Source: Mycobacterium colombiense CECT 3035 (GTDB lineage Bacteria > Actinomycetota > Actinomycetes > Mycobacteriales > Mycobacteriaceae). From it: 64,000 bases of DNA. Shown in pieces: positions 4,163 through 46,178 of this stretch. The stretch covers positions 4,960,001 to 5,024,000 of the forward strand of contig NZ_CP020821.1 in assembly GCF_002105755.1 (NCBI RefSeq), read 5' to 3'. The notes under the pieces were generated by a model. That model worked only from the letters and a program-made list of their open reading frames with translations, had not been told where the DNA came from and searched no databases. The position numbers were made by a program, and so were the translations under genes. How positions within the stretch are numbered: the stretch's first letter is position 1; every line of letters starts with the position of its first letter.

Positions 4163-4846
4163 ATGGCGGAGCAGCCGACCGGCGGACAAGGCGCCGGCGA
4201 CAGCCGTGACTCGCGCGGTGACCGCGACAGCCGCGGTCGTCGGGGCGACGGCGGTCGTGGTGGCCGCGACCGCGACGGCGACAAGAGCAACTACCTGGAG
4301 CGGGTTGTCGCGATCAACCGTGTCTCCAAGGTGGTCAAGGGTGGTCGGCGATTCAGCTTCACCGCGCTGGTGATCGTCGGCGACGGCAACGGCATGGTCG
4401 GTGTCGGCTACGGCAAGGCCAAGGAAGTTCCCGCGGCCATCGCCAAGGGCGTCGAGGAGGCCCGCAAGGGCTTCTTCCGGGTTCCGCTGATCCGCGGGAC
4501 CATCACGCACCCGGTGCAGGGTGAGGCGGCCGCCGGCGTGGTGCTGCTGCGCCCGGCCAGCCCCGGTACCGGTGTGATCGCCGGTGGCGCCGCCCGTGCG
4601 GTGCTGGAATGCGCCGGCGTGCACGACATCCTGGCCAAGTCGCTGGGTAGCGACAACGCGATCAACGTGGTGCACGCGACCGTCGCCGCGCTCAAGCTGC
4701 TGCAGCGCCCCGAGGAGGTGGCCGCTCGCCGCGGCCTGCCCATCGAGGACGTTGCGCCGGCCGGAATGCTCAAGGCGCGCCGCGAAAGTGAAGCGATGGC
4801 CAGTGCGGCGGCCCGCGAGGCCCAGACCTCGGGGGCGCAGCCATGA
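4163..4846 (+). CDS. rpsE: 30S ribosomal protein S5
   Basis: The 227-residue product is S5, part of the decoding and mRNA entry region. A Gly/Arg/Asp-rich mycobacterial N-terminal tail (residues 1-40) precedes the double-stranded RNA-binding-like domain ([20 protein letters not shown]) and the C-terminal domain. I chose the ATG at 4163, which follows AAGGA; upstream in-frame codons lie in rplR. It overlaps rpmD by 4 nt (ATGA). Confidence 0.96.
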
Positions 4847-5061
4847 GCAGTCAACTGAAGATCACCCAGGTGCGTAGCACCATCGGGGCCCGCTGGAAGC
4901 AGCGCGAGTCCCTGCGCACCCTGGGCCTGCGAAAGATTCGCCAGTCAGTGGTCCGCGAGGACAACGCGCAGACCCGTGGCCTGATCGCGGTGGTCAGCCA
5001 CCTCGTCGAGGTGGAGCCGGCCGAGGCGACGGCCACGGGCACCGGAGGTAGCAAGAAATGA
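4843..5061 (+). CDS. rpmD: 50S ribosomal protein L30
   Basis: The 72-residue product has the L30 pattern ([28 protein letters not shown]). It starts inside the last codons of rpsE (ATGA overlap) and overlaps rplO by 4 nt, so the genes are coupled. Confidence 0.96.
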
Positions 5062-5501
5062 CGATCAAGCTGCACGACCTCAAGCCGGCGCGCGGGTCGA
5101 AGACGGCTCGCACGCGGGTCGGCCGCGGTGAGGGCTCCAAGGGTAAGACCGCCGGTCGCGGCACCAAGGGCACCAAGGCCCGCAAGAACGTGCCGACCAC
5201 CTTCGAGGGTGGCCAGATGCCGATCCACATGCGGCTGCCCAAGCTCAAGGGCTTCCGCAACCGGTTCCGCACCGAGTACGAGATCGTCAACGTCGGCGAC
5301 CTCAATCGGCTTTTCCCGCAGGGCGGTTCGATCGGCGTGGACGAGCTGGTGGCCAAGGGCGCGGTTCGCCGCAACTCGCTGGTCAAGGTCCTCGGCGACG
5401 GCAAGCTGACGGTCAAGGTCGAGGTGACCGCGCACAAGTTCAGCGGCAGCGCGCGCGAGAAGATCACCGCCGCGGGCGGCTCGGCCACCGAGCTGTCCTA
5501 G
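5058..5501 (+). CDS. rplO: 50S ribosomal protein L15
   Basis: The 147-residue product is L15, with the Gly/Lys/Arg-rich N-terminal segment ([19 protein letters not shown]) that threads into 23S rRNA and the globular C-terminal domain. Its TAG stop shares the CTAG sequence with the stop of the opposite-strand oxidoreductase, so the spc operon ends here. secY lies 14 kb downstream instead of following directly as in most bacteria. Confidence 0.97.
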
Positions 5502-9277: not shown

Positions 9278-10189
9278 CTACTTCAGCGTCGCGTCGACGT
9301 AACTCAGGTCGCCGAAGGCCGCGAGCACCTCTTCGGGGAATTCGAAGCCGTTATGCGCGTACAGTTCCCGGACGGAGTGGGCCGTCACATCCCAGCCGTG
9401 CTCGGCCAGGTAGTCGACGACGACGCTGCGCTCACCGCGATAGAACAGGTCGCCCGCATCGAGGTTGAACCCGGCGCGCCGCCACCGTTCGGTGATGCGT
9501 TGCAGGCGCTCGTCGGTGAACGAATTGGGGTCCGGCACGTGTTCGGTGGCCAGCCTGCTGCCCGGCGCGCTGAGCGAGGCGATGTTGTCGAACAAGCGGT
9601 CCTGGGCCTCCGGTGGCAGGTAGGGCAGCAGTCCTTCGGCGCTCCACGCGGTCGGCCGGGTGACGTCAAAGCCGCTCTCCCGCAACGCGGCGGGCCAGTC
9701 ATCGCGCAGGTCGATGCCTACGGTTCGACGTTCGGCGGTCGGGGCGGCGCCGAGATCGGCCAGCGTGTTGGTCTTGAACGCGATGACCTGTGGCTGGTCG
9801 ATCTCGTAGACCACGGTGCCCGCGGGCCACGGCAACCGGTAGGGCCTGGTGTCCAGGCCGGCGGCGAGGATCACCGCCTGGCGGACACCGTCTTTGGTGG
9901 CATTGATGAAGAAGTTGTCGAAGAACCTGGTCCGCACGGTCATCTGCTCGGCCCGGGTCTTGCGGTTCATCAGCGGGTCGTCGGCGAAATCGACATCGTC
10001 GTCGAGGATCCGGATGAAGGGGTCCAGCCCGACGGCGCGGACCAAAGGATCGGCCAGTCGATCGTCGAGCAGCGGGTTGGGTCCCTGCGAAGCCACGGCG
10101 CGGGAGGCGGCGACCATCGTGGCCGTCGCTCCCACGCTGGACGCCAGGTCCCAACTGTCGCCCTCGGTTCGTCCCGTGTCAGCGGTCAT
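9278..10189 (-). CDS. SAM-dependent methyltransferase, TIGR00027/LCM-like family (copy B)
   Basis: The 303-residue paralogue has all family blocks: [73 protein letters not shown] and GSRLATEHV. It starts with ATG and lies 12 nt behind copy C, so the three copies probably form one transcript. The substrate is not known. Confidence 0.9.
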
Positions 10190-39177: not shown

Positions 39178-39184
39178 GTAACCC
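39178..39184 (+). promoter_or_regulatory. GTAACCC box upstream of the flavoprotein gene
   Basis: GTAACCCGGTTCGA here shares GTAACCCG-NN-TCGA with the box before the sigma factor gene. It may be an ECF -35 element 45 bp from the ATG. Confidence 0.3.
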
Positions 39185-39228
39185 GGTTCGACCCTTGGCA
39201 AGGCGGGAGCGGGCTAGCCTGACAGCTG

Positions 39229-40644
39229 ATGCACACCATCGAGGCCGACTACCTGGTGGTCGGGGCGGGCGCCATGGGCATGGCGTTCGTCGACACGCTG
39301 GTCTCCGAGACGGAGGCCCGCGTGGTCGTGGTGGATCGCTACCACGCGCCCGGCGGGCACTGGACCATGGCCTATCCGTTCGTGCGGCTGCATCAGCCCT
39401 CGGCGTTCTATGGTGTCAACTCGGCACGGCTGGGCGGCGACACCGTCGACCAAGTCGGTTGGAACCGTGGCCTTTACGAGCTGGCGACCGCCGGCGAGAT
39501 CTGCGCGTACTACGACCACATCATGCACCGGGAGTGGTTGCCGACCGGCCGGGTCGATTACTTCCCCATGAGCGAATACCTCGGTGACGGCCGGTTTCGC
39601 ACGCTGGCCGGCGTCGACCACTCCGTCCGCGTGACGCGGCGCGTCATCGACGCCACCTACATGCGGGTCACCGTCCCGGCCATGCGGCGCCCGCCGTACG
39701 CCATCGCCGCCGGCGTCGACTGCGTTCCGCCCAACGACCTGCCCCGGCGCACCGCACACCAGCGTTACGTGATCGCCGGGGCCGGCAAGACCGGCATCGA
39801 CACCTGCCTGTGGCTGCTGAGTCACGGTGTCGAGCCGGACCGGCTGACCTGGATCATGCCCCGCGACTCCTGGCTGCTGGACCGCGAGACGATGCAGCCC
39901 GGGGCGTTGTTCGCCGACAAGCTCAAGGCGAGCTTCACCGCGCAGCTGCGTGCGATCAACGAAGCGGACTCGGTGCCGGATCTGTTCGCGCGTCTCGAGG
40001 AGGCCGGCGTGCTGTTGCGGATCGACCGCGCGGTCCGGCCCACCATGTACCGCTGCGCGACGGTCACCCGGCTCGAACTCGAGCAGTTGCGGCGCATCAC
40101 CGACGTGCTGCGGATGGGCCACCTGCTGGCCATCGAGCCGGGCAGGATGGTCCTGGACGGCGGCACCGTCGCGCTCCGCGGTGGCGAGCTGTTCATCGAC
40201 TGCACCGCGGACGGCGCCGAAAAGCGGCCAGCCACAGCAATTTTCGATCCCGGGCGGATCACCCTGCAGAGCGTGCGCGGGTGCCAGCAGATCTTCAGCG
40301 CCGCGCTGATCGCCCACGTCGAAGCTGCCTACCGGGACGACGCCGCCCGCAACGAGCTGTGCGTGCCCCTGCCGCATCCGGACACCGACGTCGACTGGAT
40401 GCGGCTGGCGCTGGCCGACTACAGCAATCAGCTGCGCTGGTTCGACGACCCGGAGTTGATGTCCTGGCTGTCCGCGGCCCGCCTGGACCTGTTCGGCCAT
40501 CTGATCGGCCACCTGCTCCCGTCCGCGTCGGCGAAGCCGCGGGTGCGGGAACGGATTCTGGGCATCGCCAAGTCCGTCTTCACCGCCACCGCCACCAAGC
40601 TCGACCGGCTGATGGCCGCCGAAGCCGCACTCGCGGTGCCCTGA
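39229..40644 (+). CDS. NAD(P)/FAD-binding oxidoreductase
   Basis: The 471-residue protein starts with an FAD dinucleotide fold (YLVVGAGAMGMAFVDTL) followed by an HxPGGHW-like segment (YHAPGGHWTMAYPFVRLHQP). It has a second Rossmann motif near residue 182 (RYVIAGAGKTGIDTCLWL) that suggests NAD(P)H use, as in flavin monooxygenases. The substrate is unknown. A TAGCCT (39215-39220) lies 8 nt before the ATG. It sits just upstream of the sigma/Rieske operon. Confidence 0.78.
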   Translation: MHTIEADYLVVGAGAMGMAFVDTLVSETEARVVVVDRYHAPGGHWTMAYPFVRLHQPSAFYGVNSARLGGDTVDQVGWNRGLYELATAGEICAYYDHIMHREWLPTGRVDYFPMSEYLGDGRFRTLAGVDHSVRVTRRVIDATYMRVTVPAMRRPPYAIAAGVDCVPPNDLPRRTAHQRYVIAGAGKTGIDTCLWLLSHGVEPDRLTWIMPRDSWLLDRETMQPGALFADKLKASFTAQLRAINEADSVPDLFARLEEAGVLLRIDRAVRPTMYRCATVTRLELEQLRRITDVLRMGHLLAIEPGRMVLDGGTVALRGGELFIDCTADGAEKRPATAIFDPGRITLQSVRGCQQIFSAALIAHVEAAYRDDAARNELCVPLPHPDTDVDWMRLALADYSNQLRWFDDPELMSWLSAARLDLFGHLIGHLLPSASAKPRVRERILGIAKSVFTATATKLDRLMAAEAALAVP

Positions 40645-40656
40645 CCCGTGTAACCC
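40641..40656 (+). promoter_or_regulatory. GTAACCC promoter block before the sigma factor gene
   Basis: CTGACCCGTGTAACCC matches 15 of 16 bases of the block at 41930-41945. It looks like an ECF -35 element. The -10 cannot be fixed; CGGG around 40671 is a candidate. Confidence 0.45.
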
Positions 40657-40686
40657 GAGTCGATATTCATCGGGTGAAGGAGGCAT

Positions 40687-41229
40687 GTGGCGGCAAACGA
40701 ACCCGTCGGCCCGCGACCCCTGCGCGCGGTGCCCGACGACGACGGCGGCTACCCGAACTGGGAGGCCGTGTACTCCGACAACGTGACCTGGGTGTACCGC
40801 ACGTTGTTCGCGCGCGTCGGCAACCAAACCGACGCCGAAGACCTCACGGCCGAGGTGTTCCTCGCCGCGCTGCGGCCGCTGCGGCTGACCGCGACCGTCG
40901 CCGAGGTCCGGGCCTACCTGCGGGCGACGGCCAGGACGGTGCTGGCCGCGCACTGGCGCGAGACGCTGGGCCGGGAGATAACCTCGATCGAGGACATCGA
41001 ACAACCAGCCGAGAGCCAGGACGCGATCAGCACCGCGCCGCAGCGCGTTGCCCGGGTTCTGGACAACCTGCCGGACCGGTACCGCCAGATTCTGGAATCG
41101 CGCTTCCTGCAGGGCAATTCGATCAAGGAGTCAGCCGCGGAACTCGGGATCAGCGTGGCCAATGCCAAAGTGCTGCAGCACCGCGCCCTGCGGCTGGCCG
41201 CACAGGTCAACGATGGGGGCCGGCCATGA
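40687..41229 (+). CDS. ECF-type sigma factor
   Basis: The 180-residue protein has sigma region 2 (SDNVTWVYRTLFARVGNQTD, DAEDLTAEVFLAALRPL) and region 4 (LPDRYRQILESRFLQGNSIK, SAAELGISVANAKVLQHRAL). I do not match it to a named mycobacterial sigma factor. The GTG at 40687 follows GAAGGAGG. The next gene overlaps its stop codon and stands where an anti-sigma factor normally lies. The shared upstream motif suggests it transcribes its own operon. Confidence 0.87.
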   Translation: MAANEPVGPRPLRAVPDDDGGYPNWEAVYSDNVTWVYRTLFARVGNQTDAEDLTAEVFLAALRPLRLTATVAEVRAYLRATARTVLAAHWRETLGREITSIEDIEQPAESQDAISTAPQRVARVLDNLPDRYRQILESRFLQGNSIKESAAELGISVANAKVLQHRALRLAAQVNDGGRP

Positions 41230-41933
41230 ACGCGCGAGGGCTGCGACGTTACGTCGACGATCTGTTGCGGGGCCGGCGGCCCAGGCCGTTTGCGCCCAAC
41301 GACTTCGAGGCCGCGCAACTGCGCACGGCGATCGAGCTGCGCGCCGCCCGCGAGGACGGTGACTCCCCGCGCCAGGAATTCGTCACCGACCTGCGCCGGC
41401 GTATCGCCGAGCAGATGTCCGGCGCGCCAACCCAACCGCCGCAGGTGCGCGGCAGCACGCGCCGCCAGGTCATCGTCGGCACGTCGGCGGCCGCCACCGC
41501 CGCGGTCGCCGCGGTGTCCGTCGATCGCGCGCTGATCGCGGGGCAAACGGGCGAGGGCCGCACCCCCGAGGTCGCCGCCGGGCAGCTCACCCCCAGCGAG
41601 GGGAGCTGGCAGCGCGTCGCGGCCGGCTCGGAGGTGCCCGACGGTGCCACGCGCGCCTTCGACCTCGGCTCGGTGACCGGATTCGTCCGCCGGGTCGGCG
41701 GCCAGGTCCAGGCGATCTCCGGGGTGTGCACCCATCAGGGCTGCAAGCTGTGGTTCGACGCGCCCGACGACACGCTGCGCTGCCCCTGCCACACCACGTC
41801 GTTCTCGCCCAGCGGGCAAGTGCTCACCCACCAGTTGCCGATCGCGCCGAAGCCTTTGCCCGCGTTGATGGTTCGTGAGGTCAACGGGGTCATCGAGGTA
41901 TTCGCCCCGCCGCACACCGAGCGGCCGGCCTGA
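41226..41933 (+). CDS. Rieske [2Fe-2S] protein with cytosolic N-terminal domain; possible anti-sigma
   Basis: The 235-residue protein has a charged N-terminal ~75 residues (RRYVDDLLRGRRPRPF, FVTDLRRRIAEQM), then a twin-Arg/hydrophobic segment (TRRQVIVGTSAAATAAVAAV) and a Rieske domain with CTHQGC and CPCH. Cys/His pairs for the cluster and the two disulfide cysteines are present. By topology the cluster would lie outside the membrane. The ATGA overlap with the sigma gene and the cytosolic head make a redox-sensing anti-sigma role plausible, but this is inference. Confidence 0.82.
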   Translation: MNARGLRRYVDDLLRGRRPRPFAPNDFEAAQLRTAIELRAAREDGDSPRQEFVTDLRRRIAEQMSGAPTQPPQVRGSTRRQVIVGTSAAATAAVAAVSVDRALIAGQTGEGRTPEVAAGQLTPSEGSWQRVAAGSEVPDGATRAFDLGSVTGFVRRVGGQVQAISGVCTHQGCKLWFDAPDDTLRCPCHTTSFSPSGQVLTHQLPIAPKPLPALMVREVNGVIEVFAPPHTERPA

Positions 41934-41945
41934 GCCGTGTAACCC
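41930..41945 (+). promoter_or_regulatory. GTAACCC promoter block before the cupredoxin gene
   Basis: CTGAGCCGTGTAACCC is identical to 40641-40656 except for one base. It lies 18 bp before the first cupredoxin ATG. Confidence 0.45.
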
Positions 41946-41963
41946 ACCGCCCTATCTCTGGGC

Positions 41964-42362
41964 ATGGATATCCGCATGCATCGAAGGCGTTCGGCGGCCA
42001 TGGCGGCCGCAGGCGTGCTGCTGTTGGCCGGTTGCTCCCAGTCCCGGCCGGTTGCGACCACCGCCGCGCCCAGCACCGGAACGTCGATCACCGCGCCGGC
42101 GGCTCCGGTGCGCGGCGACCAGGTCACCATCGACGGCTTCGCGTTCGCGCCGGTGACACTGACCGTGCCCGCGGGGACCACCGTCACGTGGACCAACCGC
42201 GACGAGGAACCCCATACGGTGGCCGCCAGCGACGGTTCGTTTCATTCACCGGGGATGGGAACCGGGGCCACCTTCACCCATACCTTCCCCACCGCAGGGA
42301 CTTTCGACTACGTCTGCTCGATCCACCCGATGATGCGCGGCACCGTGGTGGTGACGGGGTGA
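41964..42362 (+). CDS. Cupredoxin (pseudoazurin/plastocyanin-like) lipoprotein
   Basis: The 132-residue protein has a lipoprotein signal with lipobox LLAGC (Cys24) and a cupredoxin domain with type-1 copper ligands His84 (EEPHTV), Cys118, His121 and Met124 (CSIHPMM), the pseudoazurin spacing. It should shuttle electrons at the outer face of the membrane. An ATG at 41976 would give a shorter, more usual signal and would fit better with the upstream promoter block. Confidence 0.88.
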   Translation: MDIRMHRRRSAAMAAAGVLLLAGCSQSRPVATTAAPSTGTSITAPAAPVRGDQVTIDGFAFAPVTLTVPAGTTVTWTNRDEEPHTVAASDGSFHSPGMGTGATFTHTFPTAGTFDYVCSIHPMMRGTVVVTG

Positions 42363-42406
42363 GCGCCGACGACGATGCAGCGCGAAGCGATGAGGAGGAG
42401 CGGCGG

Positions 42407-43339
42407 ATGGCCACCGCCCAGCAAAGCGGCATGACCCGCCGCCAGCTGATCCGGCACGGGGCCTGGTTCGGGGCGGCGGTCGGATTCGCCGTGACCGGTG
42501 GCGAGGTCATCTCGCACGTGGCGGGCCAGGCGAAGGCGCAGCACGCGGCGGGCCGGCCCGCCCTGCGGTTCGCCCAGATCAGCGACAGCCATATCGGTTT
42601 CACCGGGGCGCCCAACCCGGACGTCGCCGGTACGTTCGGCCACGCGATCGAGCAGGTCAACAACCTCGGATACACACCGGATTTCGTCATCCACACCGGT
42701 GACCTCACCCACCTGTCCAGCCCGGAGCAGTTCGACCAGGTGAAGCAGATGATGACGGGCCTCAAGACGCCGCACGTGTTCACCGTGCCGGGGGAGCACG
42801 ACTCGGTCGACGATGCGGGCCAGAAGTACCGAAACGCGTTCGGCGCCAGCTCCGTTGGCGACGGGTGGTACAGCCTCGACATCGCCGGCGTGCACCTGAT
42901 CGCGTTGGTCAACACGCTGAATCTGCGCAAGCTCGGGCATCTGGGTGCCGATCAGCTGGAGTTCGTCAAGAAGGACGTCGCGCGTCTTTCCAGCGATACC
43001 CCCATCATCGTCTTCAGCCACATCCCGCTGTTCGCGATGTACCCGCAATGGGGCTGGGGCACCGACGATGCCACCCAGGCGCTGAGCTACCTGCGGCGCT
43101 TCTCCTCGGTCACCTGCCTCAACGGCCATGTCCACCAACTGTTCTCCAAGACGGAGGGCAACGTCGCGTTCTACAGCGGCACCACCACCGCGTACCCGCT
43201 GCCGCGACCGGGTGATGGGCCCGCGCCCAAGCCGGTCACCCTGCCGGCCGGCAAGCTGCGCGACGCGCTGGGCATCCGCGAGGTCAGCTACACCAGGGGA
43301 GAGGTCGCGCTGGCCTTGAAGGAGACTGCACTGCAATGA
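42407..43339 (+). CDS. Exported metallophosphoesterase (Tat-type signal)
   Basis: The 310-residue calcineurin-like phosphoesterase has the metal motifs DSHIGF, TGDLTH, FSHIPLF and LNGHVHQ. The GNHD block reads PGEHD, so the usual Asn is Glu. The N-terminus has TRRQLIRHGAWFG followed by a hydrophobic stretch, a Tat-like signal. I chose the ATG at 42407 after GAGGAGGAG; a GTG at 42359 overlapping the cupredoxin stop would add 16 acidic residues. The substrate is unknown. Confidence 0.85.
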   Translation: MATAQQSGMTRRQLIRHGAWFGAAVGFAVTGGEVISHVAGQAKAQHAAGRPALRFAQISDSHIGFTGAPNPDVAGTFGHAIEQVNNLGYTPDFVIHTGDLTHLSSPEQFDQVKQMMTGLKTPHVFTVPGEHDSVDDAGQKYRNAFGASSVGDGWYSLDIAGVHLIALVNTLNLRKLGHLGADQLEFVKKDVARLSSDTPIIVFSHIPLFAMYPQWGWGTDDATQALSYLRRFSSVTCLNGHVHQLFSKTEGNVAFYSGTTTAYPLPRPGDGPAPKPVTLPAGKLRDALGIREVSYTRGEVALALKETALQ

Positions 43340-43728
43340 CTTTGACGAGTATCGTGATCCGCCTCGGCCTGGCCGCGTCGTTGATCGTCAGCGCCGCCGG
43401 CCACGCCTACCTCTATGTGCACGGCTACCAACATATTCCGGAGATCGGTACGGCGTTCATGGCCCAGGCCAGCCTTTCGTTCGCGATCGCGCTGCTGATC
43501 CTGGTGGGCGGCCCCGCCTGGCTGCGCTGGGCCGGTGCGGCGGTGGCGGCCGGCTCGCTGGTCGCGTTCGTCTTGTCGCGCACCGTCGGCCTGTTCGGCT
43601 TCTCCGAACGGGGCTGGGAGCCGGCACCGTACGCGGCCGTCACCGTCGCGGCCGAGCTGTTGACGGTGGTGCTGTGGGGGCTGGATGGAGGCCTTCGGCT
43701 TCGAGGGGCCCAGACCACCGTCGTTTGA
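43336..43728 (+). CDS. Small four-helix membrane protein
   Basis: The 130-residue protein has four hydrophobic helices (for example LGLAASLIVSAAGHAYLYVH and AQASLSFAIALLILVGG). It overlaps the phosphoesterase stop by 4 nt and ends the sigma-Rieske-cupredoxin operon. Its size and helix pattern are DoxX-like, but no definite family is recognised. Confidence 0.75.
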   Translation: MTLTSIVIRLGLAASLIVSAAGHAYLYVHGYQHIPEIGTAFMAQASLSFAIALLILVGGPAWLRWAGAAVAAGSLVAFVLSRTVGLFGFSERGWEPAPYAAVTVAAELLTVVLWGLDGGLRLRGAQTTVV

Positions 43729-43759: not shown

Positions 43760-44896
43760 CTAGGCGCCCGGGGCCTCCGGGGCGGGCTGGTCTGCGCGGG
43801 CGTCGGCCGTGCTGACGGGCCCGGGCTCGTCGGAGCTGGACGGGACGGGAGCCGACCACTTGATCCGCAGCCGGCGCTTGAGGGACATCGAGGGCTTCTC
43901 GATGAGGAACCAGCTCGCCGCGGCAAGCGGCAGGGTGGTCGCCACCGCGGCGACAAAGAACAGCACCGGGTGCAGGCGCGTCGCGAGCCCGCTGACCGCC
44001 AGCAATTGCTGCGCCGGGAAGGCGTAGATGTAGACGCCGTAGGACAGATCGGTGCGCAGCCTCAACCGTTCGCTCTTGAGCAGGGAGCCCGACACCACGA
44101 CGGCGTAGGCCAGCGGGAGCGCCCCGACCACCCGGTAATCGGGCAGCAGCAACCCGGCCGCCACGACGATGACGATGCAGACCGCGACCAGCGACCATCG
44201 GGCCGGGATGGCGTCCCGCCACTGATACATGACGGCGCCGGCCGAAAACATGATGGCCGAGCGCACCGCGAGCTGCGGGATGGTCCATACCCCGGGGAAC
44301 GTCAGGGGCGGCACCGCCAACGCCGCCAGTGTTGCCAGTACCAGGATCGCGGGGGATATCCAGCGCCGATTGCCGAGCCCGGCCACCCCGATGGCGGCAA
44401 CGAAGAGGTAGCACAGCAGTTCCCACACCAGCGACCACATGGAACCGTTCCAGGCGGGTCCCCCCGGCACCCCGTGCAGCGTGCCGTCGATGCTGGGCTG
44501 CAGGTAGGCGATCGCACTGTTTTTCACGACGTACTCGAGCGGAGCGATGGAGCCGAGCAGCTTGGTGGCCGAACCGCCCTGGATCGCCAGACTGAGCGGG
44601 GCGAAGACGAACGCGGTCACGATCAGGCAGATGTAGAAACCGGGCAGGATGCGCAGTGCGCGGGCGGTGAGATAGTCACGCAGTCGCGGGTCGGTGAGCC
44701 AGCTCCGGGTGATGAGAAAGCCCGAGATCGCGAAGAATCCGTCGACACCGACCGAGAAGAAGAGCTGCAGGATCGGCTTGGGTGGCATGTGGCCGGTGAT
44801 GGGCCACGAGTGGAAGAGCATCACCTCGGCCGCCAGCGCCAACCGAAGTGCGTTGAGCGCGTTTCTTCGCGGGTCGAATACCTGCCCTAGTTTCAT
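43760..44896 (-). CDS. Acyltransferase 3 family membrane protein (copy 1)
   Basis: The 378-residue protein has about ten membrane helices with the acyltransferase-3 His in the first helix region (EVMLFHSWPITGH), the GVDGFFAISGFLIT block, and RALRILPGFYICLIVTAF. These enzymes O-acylate envelope carbohydrates or lipids. The last ~45 residues are a cytosolic Pro/Ser/Asp-rich tail. GGAGG precedes the ATG. It is a tandem paralogue of the next gene. Confidence 0.9.
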   Translation of the reverse strand: MKLGQVFDPRRNALNALRLALAAEVMLFHSWPITGHMPPKPILQLFFSVGVDGFFAISGFLITRSWLTDPRLRDYLTARALRILPGFYICLIVTAFVFAPLSLAIQGGSATKLLGSIAPLEYVVKNSAIAYLQPSIDGTLHGVPGGPAWNGSMWSLVWELLCYLFVAAIGVAGLGNRRWISPAILVLATLAALAVPPLTFPGVWTIPQLAVRSAIMFSAGAVMYQWRDAIPARWSLVAVCIVIVVAAGLLLPDYRVVGALPLAYAVVVSGSLLKSERLRLRTDLSYGVYIYAFPAQQLLAVSGLATRLHPVLFFVAAVATTLPLAAASWFLIEKPSMSLKRRLRIKWSAPVPSSSDEPGPVSTADARADQPAPEAPGA

Positions 44897-44984
44897 CCAG
44901 CCTCCGCCCCCTGCGCACCACTCATCGTCGGCGCCATCGTACGGGCCAAAAGCCGACGGGCGCTGACGCGGGCAGTGGCCTCGA

Positions 44985-46178
44985 TCAGGTCGCAGCCTCG
45001 CGATTCTTTGCCGGCAACGCCGCGTCTTGCGTCTTCACATCGTCGCGATCATGGGTAGGCGGCACCGGGGACTCCGGTGGCATCGCCATGGTCGCTTGCT
45101 CGCGAGAGCCGGCGGATCTCTGTTTCAGTCGCGCCTTGAGCGACCTCGCCGGCTTTTCGACCAGGAACCAGCTCGCCGCGGCCAGCGGCAGGGTGGCCAG
45201 CGCCACGGTCAGGCAGAACACGATCGGATTGAGGCTGAGCAGGCCGAGGACCGCCAGCAGCTGCTGGGTCGGATACGCGTAGATGTACATGCCGTAGGAC
45301 AGGTCCGTGCGCAACCTCAATCGCTTGTTGTGCAACAGGGACCCGGAGACGATGACGGCGTAGGCCAACGGCACCGCGGCGACCACCCGGTAGTCCGGCA
45401 ACTGGCCGGCCACCAGCACGATGACCACGCTCACCGCGACCAGCGACCAGCGGGCGGGAATCACGTCGCGCCACTGATACAGCAGCGCTCCGGCGGCGAA
45501 CATGATCGCCGCCCGGCAGGCCAGGAAGACGATGACGATGCCGACGTTGCCGGTCGGTTTGTTGAACACCTCGGGGAACGTGACGGGAGGCATCATGGAC
45601 GCCCCGATGGCGGCCGCCACCAATATCACCGGCGAGACCCACCTGCGGTTGGCCAGTCCGGCCACGCCGATGGCGGCGACGACCAGATAGCACATCACTT
45701 CCCAGAACAGTGACCACAGCGACGCGTTCCAGATGCCGGCGTTCGGGATGTCGAACGGGGTGCCGCCCACGTCGGGCTTGAGCCACAGGACCGCGATGTT
45801 CTTCAGGACGTACTCGAACGGGGCGAACGAGAACAGCAGCTTGGTCGGCGAACCGCCCTGGATCGCCACGCTGAGCGGGGCGAACACGAAGGCGGTCACG
45901 ATCATGCAGACGTAGAAGCCGGGCAGGATGCGCAGGGCCCGGGCGGCGAGGTAGGCGCGCAGCTTCGGGTTGCTCAGCCAACTCGCGGTGATGAGGAATC
46001 CCGAGATGGCGAAGAACCCGTCCACCCCGACGGACAGCAGGAGTTGCAGAACGGCCCGCAGCGAGGGCAGGTGGCCGTGAACCGGGTAGGTGTGCCAGAA
46101 GATGACCTCCGCCGCGAGCGCTAACCGCCATGCGTTCAGTGCGTTGCTTCGCGGATCGAAAACCTGCCCTAGCTTCAT
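44985..46178 (-). CDS. Acyltransferase 3 family membrane protein (copy 2)
   Basis: The 397-residue paralogue of the preceding protein starts with the same MKLGQVFDPR and has EVIFWHTYPVHGH, VGVDGFFAISGFLITASW and RALRILPGFYVCMIVTAF. The two copies are 88 bp apart and co-oriented, so they arose by tandem duplication. The nearby rmlB/rmlC genes (rhamnose donor) make a cell-envelope glycolipid substrate possible. Confidence 0.9.
   Translation of the reverse strand: MKLGQVFDPRSNALNAWRLALAAEVIFWHTYPVHGHLPSLRAVLQLLLSVGVDGFFAISGFLITASWLSNPKLRAYLAARALRILPGFYVCMIVTAFVFAPLSVAIQGGSPTKLLFSFAPFEYVLKNIAVLWLKPDVGGTPFDIPNAGIWNASLWSLFWEVMCYLVVAAIGVAGLANRRWVSPVILVAAAIGASMMPPVTFPEVFNKPTGNVGIVIVFLACRAAIMFAAGALLYQWRDVIPARWSLVAVSVVIVLVAGQLPDYRVVAAVPLAYAVIVSGSLLHNKRLRLRTDLSYGMYIYAYPTQQLLAVLGLLSLNPIVFCLTVALATLPLAAASWFLVEKPARSLKARLKQRSAGSREQATMAMPPESPVPPTHDRDDVKTQDAALPAKNREAAT

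Follow-up and report, generated by a model that had tools for sequence, protein, structure and literature searches.

The window, the whole 64,000-nucleotide stretch of Mycobacterium colombiense CECT 3035 DNA analysed here (positions 4,960,001 to 5,024,000 of NZ_CP020821.1; the host genome is one contig of 5.58 Mb), encodes on its plus strand an extracytoplasmic function (ECF) sigma factor and, directly after it, a Rieske iron-sulfur protein, which together probably form a sigma/anti-sigma pair whose sensor is the outer Rieske domain and whose outputs are redox proteins that are exported. The pairing of the two genes and the co-regulation are well supported by the comparison of sequences; we infer that the Rieske protein binds the sigma factor and frees it upon a signal, and that the sigma factor reads the box described below. 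As the open reading frames of the window and Pfam show, the gene order is flavoprotein, ECF sigma factor, Rieske protein, cupredoxin, metallophosphoesterase and small membrane protein. An earlier interpretation made from the letters of the window (the sequence-only reading) had proposed the order from sigma factor to membrane protein, an ATGA overlap between the sigma and Rieske genes, and a phosphoesterase of the twin-arginine translocation (Tat) type. Order and overlap are confirmed, the Rieske ATG at 41226 overlapping the sigma stop TGA at 41227–41229, and the domains are sigma-70 regions 2 and 4, Rieske, Copper-bind and Metallophos; RR motifs of the Tat type are visible by inspection in the Rieske and phosphoesterase sequences. 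It had also proposed a redox regulon with the Rieske protein in the anti-sigma position and copper and flavin electron carriers as outputs, of which the regulator pair and the cupredoxin operon as its target are supported by comparison and the flavin carrier is not.

The pairing is evident in the synteny. A search of named genomes for the Rieske protein turned up 66 loci, among them one of Mycobacterium colombiense whose protein is 93% identical to that of the window; a remote 28% match (L074) was dropped, leaving 65 from Mycobacterium, Mycolicibacterium, Mycobacteroides and Skermania. Gene presence at each locus was called by tblastn with the window proteins, and as contig ends cut some loci, absences are upper bounds. 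The sigma gene lies directly 5' of the Rieske gene in all 65 loci, with extrapolated ends no more than 3 bases apart. The cupredoxin and the phosphoesterase are likewise found inside the fetched stretch in 65 of 65, divergent from the sigma-Rieske pair in 22, and the small membrane protein is matched in 53.

The co-regulation is suggested by a bipartite box with the consensus GTGTAACC-N7/8-TAT(C/T). GTAACC with a TAT or TAC 7 or 8 bases further on occurs upstream of the sigma gene in 63 of the 65 loci and upstream of the cupredoxin gene in every one. The box remains with each operon when the operons are divergent or separated (L124, L125, L120): divergent loci carry two boxes that point away from each other, and in L120 the cupredoxin match lies ∼1.9 kb from the Rieske gene with a box ∼0.3 kb before it. 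The 16-bp block with 15/16 identity noted in the sequence-only reading is real (40641–40656 and 41930–41945); it includes the stop codons of the upstream genes, and the part kept across species is GTGTAACC plus TAT(C/T) 8 bp on. The window holds 6 copies of GTAACCC where 2.3 are expected, an excess that is weak alone because 3 of 100 shuffles reach 6. A box profile was built from 94 non-redundant sites, out of 172 in 84 loci, which were chosen by GTAACC plus TA[TC], so that those columns are forced. The elements are 8 bases apart in 90 of these sites and 7 in the other 4; over the 90, positions −1 to 0 are GT, and positions 23–28, GG(T/C)(G/A)(A/T)G, are moderately conserved. What look by eye like GC-rich inverted repeats come after the box, within the presumed 5' leader of the cupredoxin gene, in L046–L053, L057 and L064.

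The sigma-Rieske adjacency recurs in three further actinobacterial families, and on this comparison the system is not confined to mycobacteria. In the literature searched, with the large ECF classification outside its scope, neither a Rieske anti-sigma factor nor this mycobacterial gene set was found described, in line with the sequence-only reading, which knew of no such system in mycobacteria. In a class-wide search of 394 genomes, the best 7 Rieske and best 5 phosphoesterase candidates were scored per genome, and the counts are lower bounds. A Rieske match at E 1e-10 is present in at least 44 genomes, and we took as holders of the pair the 26 with E <1e-30, leaving out the 18 weaker matches. 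The phosphoesterase (E 1e-40) occurs in at least 24 genomes, and at least 23 hold both it and the sigma-Rieske pair (Fisher p 6e-33). The strict box pattern shows the same association, being present in 18 of the 26 holders versus 14 of the 368 other genomes (p 1e-16); 31 of its 45 matches fall in holders, versus 2 of 27 for the reversed control. Eight holders lack the strict pattern; in seven of them near variants precede the sigma gene or its neighbours. The eighth, G134, has a box before the gene directly upstream of the sigma gene, a weak PAP2 match below the Pfam cut-off.

In 199 genomes of a Streptomyces-like genus, the phosphoesterase was found in 7 genomes, at 8 loci. GTAACC is absent from 6 of these, while the locus of G363 has a degenerate box and that of G559 (L203) a good one; in G363 and G559 an additional GTAACC, lacking the TAT element, lies ∼40 bp upstream. 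The Rieske-family profile gave partial matches in 5 of these 7 genomes, none reaching residues 1–45 (best E 7e-12), and none in G559 or G575.

Scans for further boxes point to a small regulon. Across 158 genomes of the own genus, GTGTAACC-N7/8-TATCT gave 50 matches in 43 genomes versus 9 for the reversed control. Regulon assignment covers 34 of the 50 matched boxes, in 30 loci: 15 precede the cupredoxin gene, 9 the sigma gene, 3 one PPE gene and 2 a gene for a small exported protein that we call MYSN, so that 29 of the 34 precede one of these four. Of the 5 unassigned boxes, those of L232 and L240 precede a DoxX gene upstream of sigma-Rieske, that of L229 precedes what is evidently the start of a cupredoxin gene, that of L246 is 180 bases away from the end of its locus, and the fifth is in L228. 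A DoxX gene with a box is also seen upstream of sigma-Rieske in L248 and L249, where the fetched stretch gave no cupredoxin or phosphoesterase match. The boxes at a ferric-reductase-like gene (G053) and at genes for small exported proteins (G085, G331) are single cases and may be due to chance, which also looks like the origin of matches away from the system in G003 and G329.

The MYSN protein (∼74 residues in L124, where it starts MYSN) matches no Pfam family; its gene stands just 3' of the Rieske gene, with its own box and an ATG at the phased distance discussed below, in L046, L047, L049–L053, L058, L067, L069 and L124. A scan of the own genome with TGTAACC-N6/8-TATC recovered two sites only, one at the cupredoxin gene and one at a PPE gene, with one control match in one run and none in another. 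The close relative G179 has a single box match, at the cupredoxin gene. The PPE site lies outside the window (G000:C1:190089-190109, L155), next to a short upstream frame that ends in TAATG at the PPE start, and we take it seriously only because two other genomes (G066, G169) also carry the box in front of this PPE gene.

The flavoprotein, which the sequence-only reading had counted among the outputs by virtue of an upstream GTAACCC, is not borne out. Of 26 loci, 9 have GTAACC upstream of it and none has the bipartite form, which rules it out as a member of the regulon; this count left out loci with a match starting after residue 5. By inspection, the GTAACCC at 39178 adjoins the divergent mmsA promoter. 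The flavoprotein is matched in 28 of the 65 loci, near full length in 23, and therefore falls outside the conserved module; in several close relatives (L010, L018, L019) it is shortened.

The sigma factor itself, with Sigma70_r2 at residues 29–91, Sigma70_r4_2 at 120–169 and regions 2 and 4 only in ∼180 residues, is of the ECF type, and scores 59.7 bits against TIGR02937 (cut-off 42.9). The nearest sequence in the PDB is 6dxo_A (E 2.6e-11), which we take to be BldN of the BldN-RsbN complex. The window's sigma factor is not in the BldN family, at 62.9 bits for TIGR02952 versus a curated cut-off of 206.45. Ten genomes of the Streptomyces-like genus hold a gene 94–97% identical to 6dxo_A over region 2; the gene downstream of this bldN presumably resembles RsbN. 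Downstream of bldN, GTAACC-N16-CGTTGT is found in 9 of the 10 loci and the N15 form in the tenth, further CGTAAC occurrences being listed besides this site. PMC4255298 reports a BldN-dependent promoter for rsbN, and PMC8103513 describes RsbN as a membrane-anchored anti-sigma factor that blocks sigma region 4 and tethers BldN to the membrane. As GTAACC sits both in our box and at the putative rsbN promoter, downstream of the sigma factor's nearest solved relative, it is plausibly read by sigma region 4. The two systems are thus alike in that the window's sigma factor is nearest to 6dxo_A among solved chains, the partner gene is directly downstream and its product membrane-anchored, and GTAACC is in common. 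They differ in their targets, in the outer part of the partner, here a Rieske domain, and in the promoter, since by inspection the putative rsbN promoter lacks a TAT element 8 bp from GTAACC. RsbN is a class III (ASDIII) anti-sigma factor, whereas the N-terminal domain of the window Rieske protein has no detectable homology to RsbN-like proteins.

The distance from the box to the start codon is unusual. One group of cupredoxin loci (L009–L038, L070, L073) has an ATG exactly 25 bases after the G of GTAACC in all of its 32 members, and the same spacing is seen in 11 of 11 chosen MYSN loci and at both DoxX genes. The other 33 cupredoxin loci have no phased ATG and mostly longer leaders, and in L231 the box lies ∼178 bases before MYSN. 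Over 83 non-redundant boxes, ATG peaks at the 25-base distance (12 versus at most 4 elsewhere); a GTG peak (28 of 83) two bases before that place we take to be part of a GGTG element and not start codons. This phasing suggests that transcripts may start at the ATG and be leaderless, with TATC as the −10 element. Translation from the phased ATG is unsupported by a codon-position test, because no third-position excess follows it.

The same lack of excess fits another arrangement, possible yet doubtful in our judgement, in which the promoter is an ordinary ECF one with GTAACC as −35, a 16-bp spacer, GG(T/C)(G/A) as −10 and a start ∼35 bases after GTAACC, TATC being an accessory spacer element. 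Its −35 and spacing equal those of the putative rsbN promoter, positions 23–28 are moderately conserved, and 14 of the 32 loci offer an in-frame ATG, GTG or TTG four codons past the phased ATG, where leaderless translation would be possible. In the other 18, however, no such codon occurs at the later place, and transcripts would miss the phased start codon. Moreover, GTAACC-N16-GGYR is moderately conserved, yet before both the sigma and the cupredoxin genes GTAACC comes with a TAT or TAC at the set distance of 8 bp, at the frequencies given above, while positions 23–28 vary.

The Rieske protein is where the proposed sensor would reside. Its CxH and CxxH ligands and Rieske fold make it a Rieske [2Fe-2S] protein; the top sequence matches are 8hn2 and 8r3a, and the best fold match of the model is 8hn2. 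The 40 aligned proteins, those of the window and of 39 of the 65 loci, all keep C168, H170, C186 and H189, as well as the additional cysteines C173 and C188 and the arginines R79 and R80, and by inspection twelve distant proteins retain CTHxGC, CPCH and an RR pair. The CTHxGC and CPCH motifs, the extra cysteine pair and the 8hn2 and 8r3a matches are shared with respiratory-type Rieske subunits (PetC, QcrA, AioB). The window protein differs from these in falling below every equivalog cut-off (for the cytochrome bc1/b6f subunit, at best 32.6 bits versus 250), in bearing an extra N-terminal domain and in being paired with a sigma factor. A profile of residues 1–64 (A2), searched with the best 15 candidates scored per genome, matched 25 of the 394 genomes at E 1e-4, once each and only at the sigma-Rieske locus. 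Zinc anti-sigma domains carry an HxxxCxxC motif; the A2 alignment has no Cys in any of its 20 N-terminal segments, so the domain is not of that kind, and residues 1–64 of the window protein hold neither Cys nor His. AlphaFold2 places helices at 3–14, 26–40 and 50–64 and a membrane helix at 89–104, all at low confidence, and models the Rieske part mostly with predicted local distance difference test (pLDDT) values >90.

A simpler role for this protein would be electron transfer, co-expressed with the sigma factor and exchanging electrons with the cupredoxin, the sigma factor being controlled otherwise. Both proteins are indeed electron carriers, and in G306 the cupredoxin's usual place before the phosphoesterase is taken by a gene for a small Rieske lipoprotein (L161 ∼4743–5330), preceded by a box; a second box, with 9 bases between its elements, precedes the phosphoesterase, and no cupredoxin match was found at that locus. 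The frame of this lipoprotein gene is shifted by a long G run, perhaps through phase variation or a sequencing error. We nonetheless regard such a role as rather unlikely, as it is hard to see what a plain exported Rieske protein would do with the conserved cytosolic domain of 64 residues ahead of its Tat anchor, and the sigma and Rieske genes stay adjacent in all 65 loci while the cupredoxin operon shifts its orientation or place.

In the sigma/anti-sigma reading that we prefer, the 64-residue cytosolic domain would hold the sigma factor at the membrane. The Rieske protein would be exported by Tat with its [2Fe-2S] cluster already folded, and the cluster would therefore face outward. A change in the cluster, whether in oxidation state, by damage or by failed assembly, would free the sigma factor, which would then transcribe the operon that encodes it and a small regulon whose products are exported proteins of electron transfer and of the surface, with the cupredoxin as core output. 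RsrA/RshA and RskA are redox-responsive anti-sigma factors that use zinc-bound thiols or a disulfide. If our reading is right, the pair resembles them in placing an ECF sigma factor under a redox-sensitive partner and differs in that the sensor would be an outer iron-sulfur cluster. We also entertain, as a long shot, a new type of anti-sigma factor that reports on its own cluster. Only a cluster-bearing Rieske protein would fold, pass Tat proofreading and tether the sigma factor; loss, over-oxidation or failed assembly of the cluster would free it to read promoters of unusual geometry, with GTGTAACC about one helical turn too near the −10 element, for leaderless mRNAs of exported electron carriers.

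Several observations weigh against the preferred reading. The N-terminal domain has no match among solved chains in the PDB (best E 0.15), its hhalign probability against the RsbN-like genes downstream of bldN is <1%, and its model is of low confidence. Two loci (L062, L066) have no box before the sigma gene, and some of the 31 box matches in holders precede unrelated sequence. G134 holds the pair but no phosphoesterase match in its genome; no cupredoxin is matched near the pair there, and the box stands in front of a different gene. In G559, conversely, a good box precedes a cupredoxin gene with no Rieske-family match, which counts against a strict sigma-box link. The box geometry also appears to misfit a plain −35/−10 pair, since with TATC as −10 GTAACC would lie about one helical turn closer than usual. 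That the box serves some other regulator as operator or activator site rather than the sigma factor as promoter, as might be argued from the 8 bp between GTAACC and TAT(C/T) (too close for −35/−10), from the phased ATG in three unrelated genes (which suggests TATC as −10 and GTAACC at about −25 to −20) and from the good box lacking the pair in G559, is quite improbable, since the sigma factor is the sole recognisable DNA-binding protein of the conserved module, the box is enriched in genomes holding the pair, and GTAACC is found downstream of bldN in 10 of 10 Streptomyces-like loci, where the rsbN promoter is expected.

Coordinates of the features discussed, in positions of the window
Feature	Positions	Strand	Basis
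GTAACCC before flavoprotein, not a member	39178-39184	+	bipartite form in 0/26 upstream regions
Flavoprotein	39229-40644	+	upstream of sigma
Box upstream of sigma: GTGTAACC 40648-40655, TATT 40664-40667	40648-40677	+	bipartite form in 63/65 loci
ECF sigma factor, 180 aa, GTG start	40687-41229	+	Sigma70_r2 and Sigma70_r4 above cut-off
Rieske protein (235 aa), presumed anti-sigma factor, with N-terminal domain in the cytosol, anchor of Tat type and Rieske domain outside	41226-41933	+	Pfam Rieske, E 1.9e-13
N-terminal domain, residues 1-64, three predicted helices, presumed sigma-binding	41226-41417	+	profile A2
Twin-arginine motif (residues 79-80) and single membrane helix (~residues 89-104)	41460-41537	+	alignment, low-confidence model
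Rieske [2Fe-2S] domain, CTHQGC and CPCH motifs	41604-41828	+	alignment
Box upstream of cupredoxin: GTGTAACC 41937-41944, TATC 41953-41956, ATG 41964	41937-41966	+	bipartite form in 65/65 loci
Cupredoxin lipoprotein, amicyanin/plastocyanin-like, 132 aa	41964-42362	+	Copper-bind, E 1.2e-10; lipobox by inspection
Metallophosphoesterase, Tat-type, GTG start overlaps cupredoxin stop	42359-43339	+	Metallophos, E 2.3e-12
Small membrane protein, 130 aa	43336-43728	+	no Pfam family above cut-off

The cupredoxin has a Copper-bind domain and scores 52.8 for the amicyanin equivalog, below its cut-off of 110.2. After the cluster, the minus strand encodes two adjoining similar membrane proteins (43760–46178), which we take to be of an acyltransferase-like family. 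A heavy-metal-ATPase motif (GMSCASCA) ∼4 kb from the pair, near position 9600 in nine loci (L046, L047, L049–L053, L067, L069), was rejected as a further component, as it looks like the shared synteny of one clade.

If the sigma/anti-sigma reading is true, an outward-facing iron-sulfur cluster would join the short list of anti-sigma sensors, and the pair would be a compact case of an electron state outside the membrane being relayed to transcription. The distance from box to start raises the question of how an ECF sigma factor reads its promoter. The same reading would account for a regulon, apparently not described so far, that is conserved in many non-tuberculous mycobacteria and in some actinobacteria beyond them.

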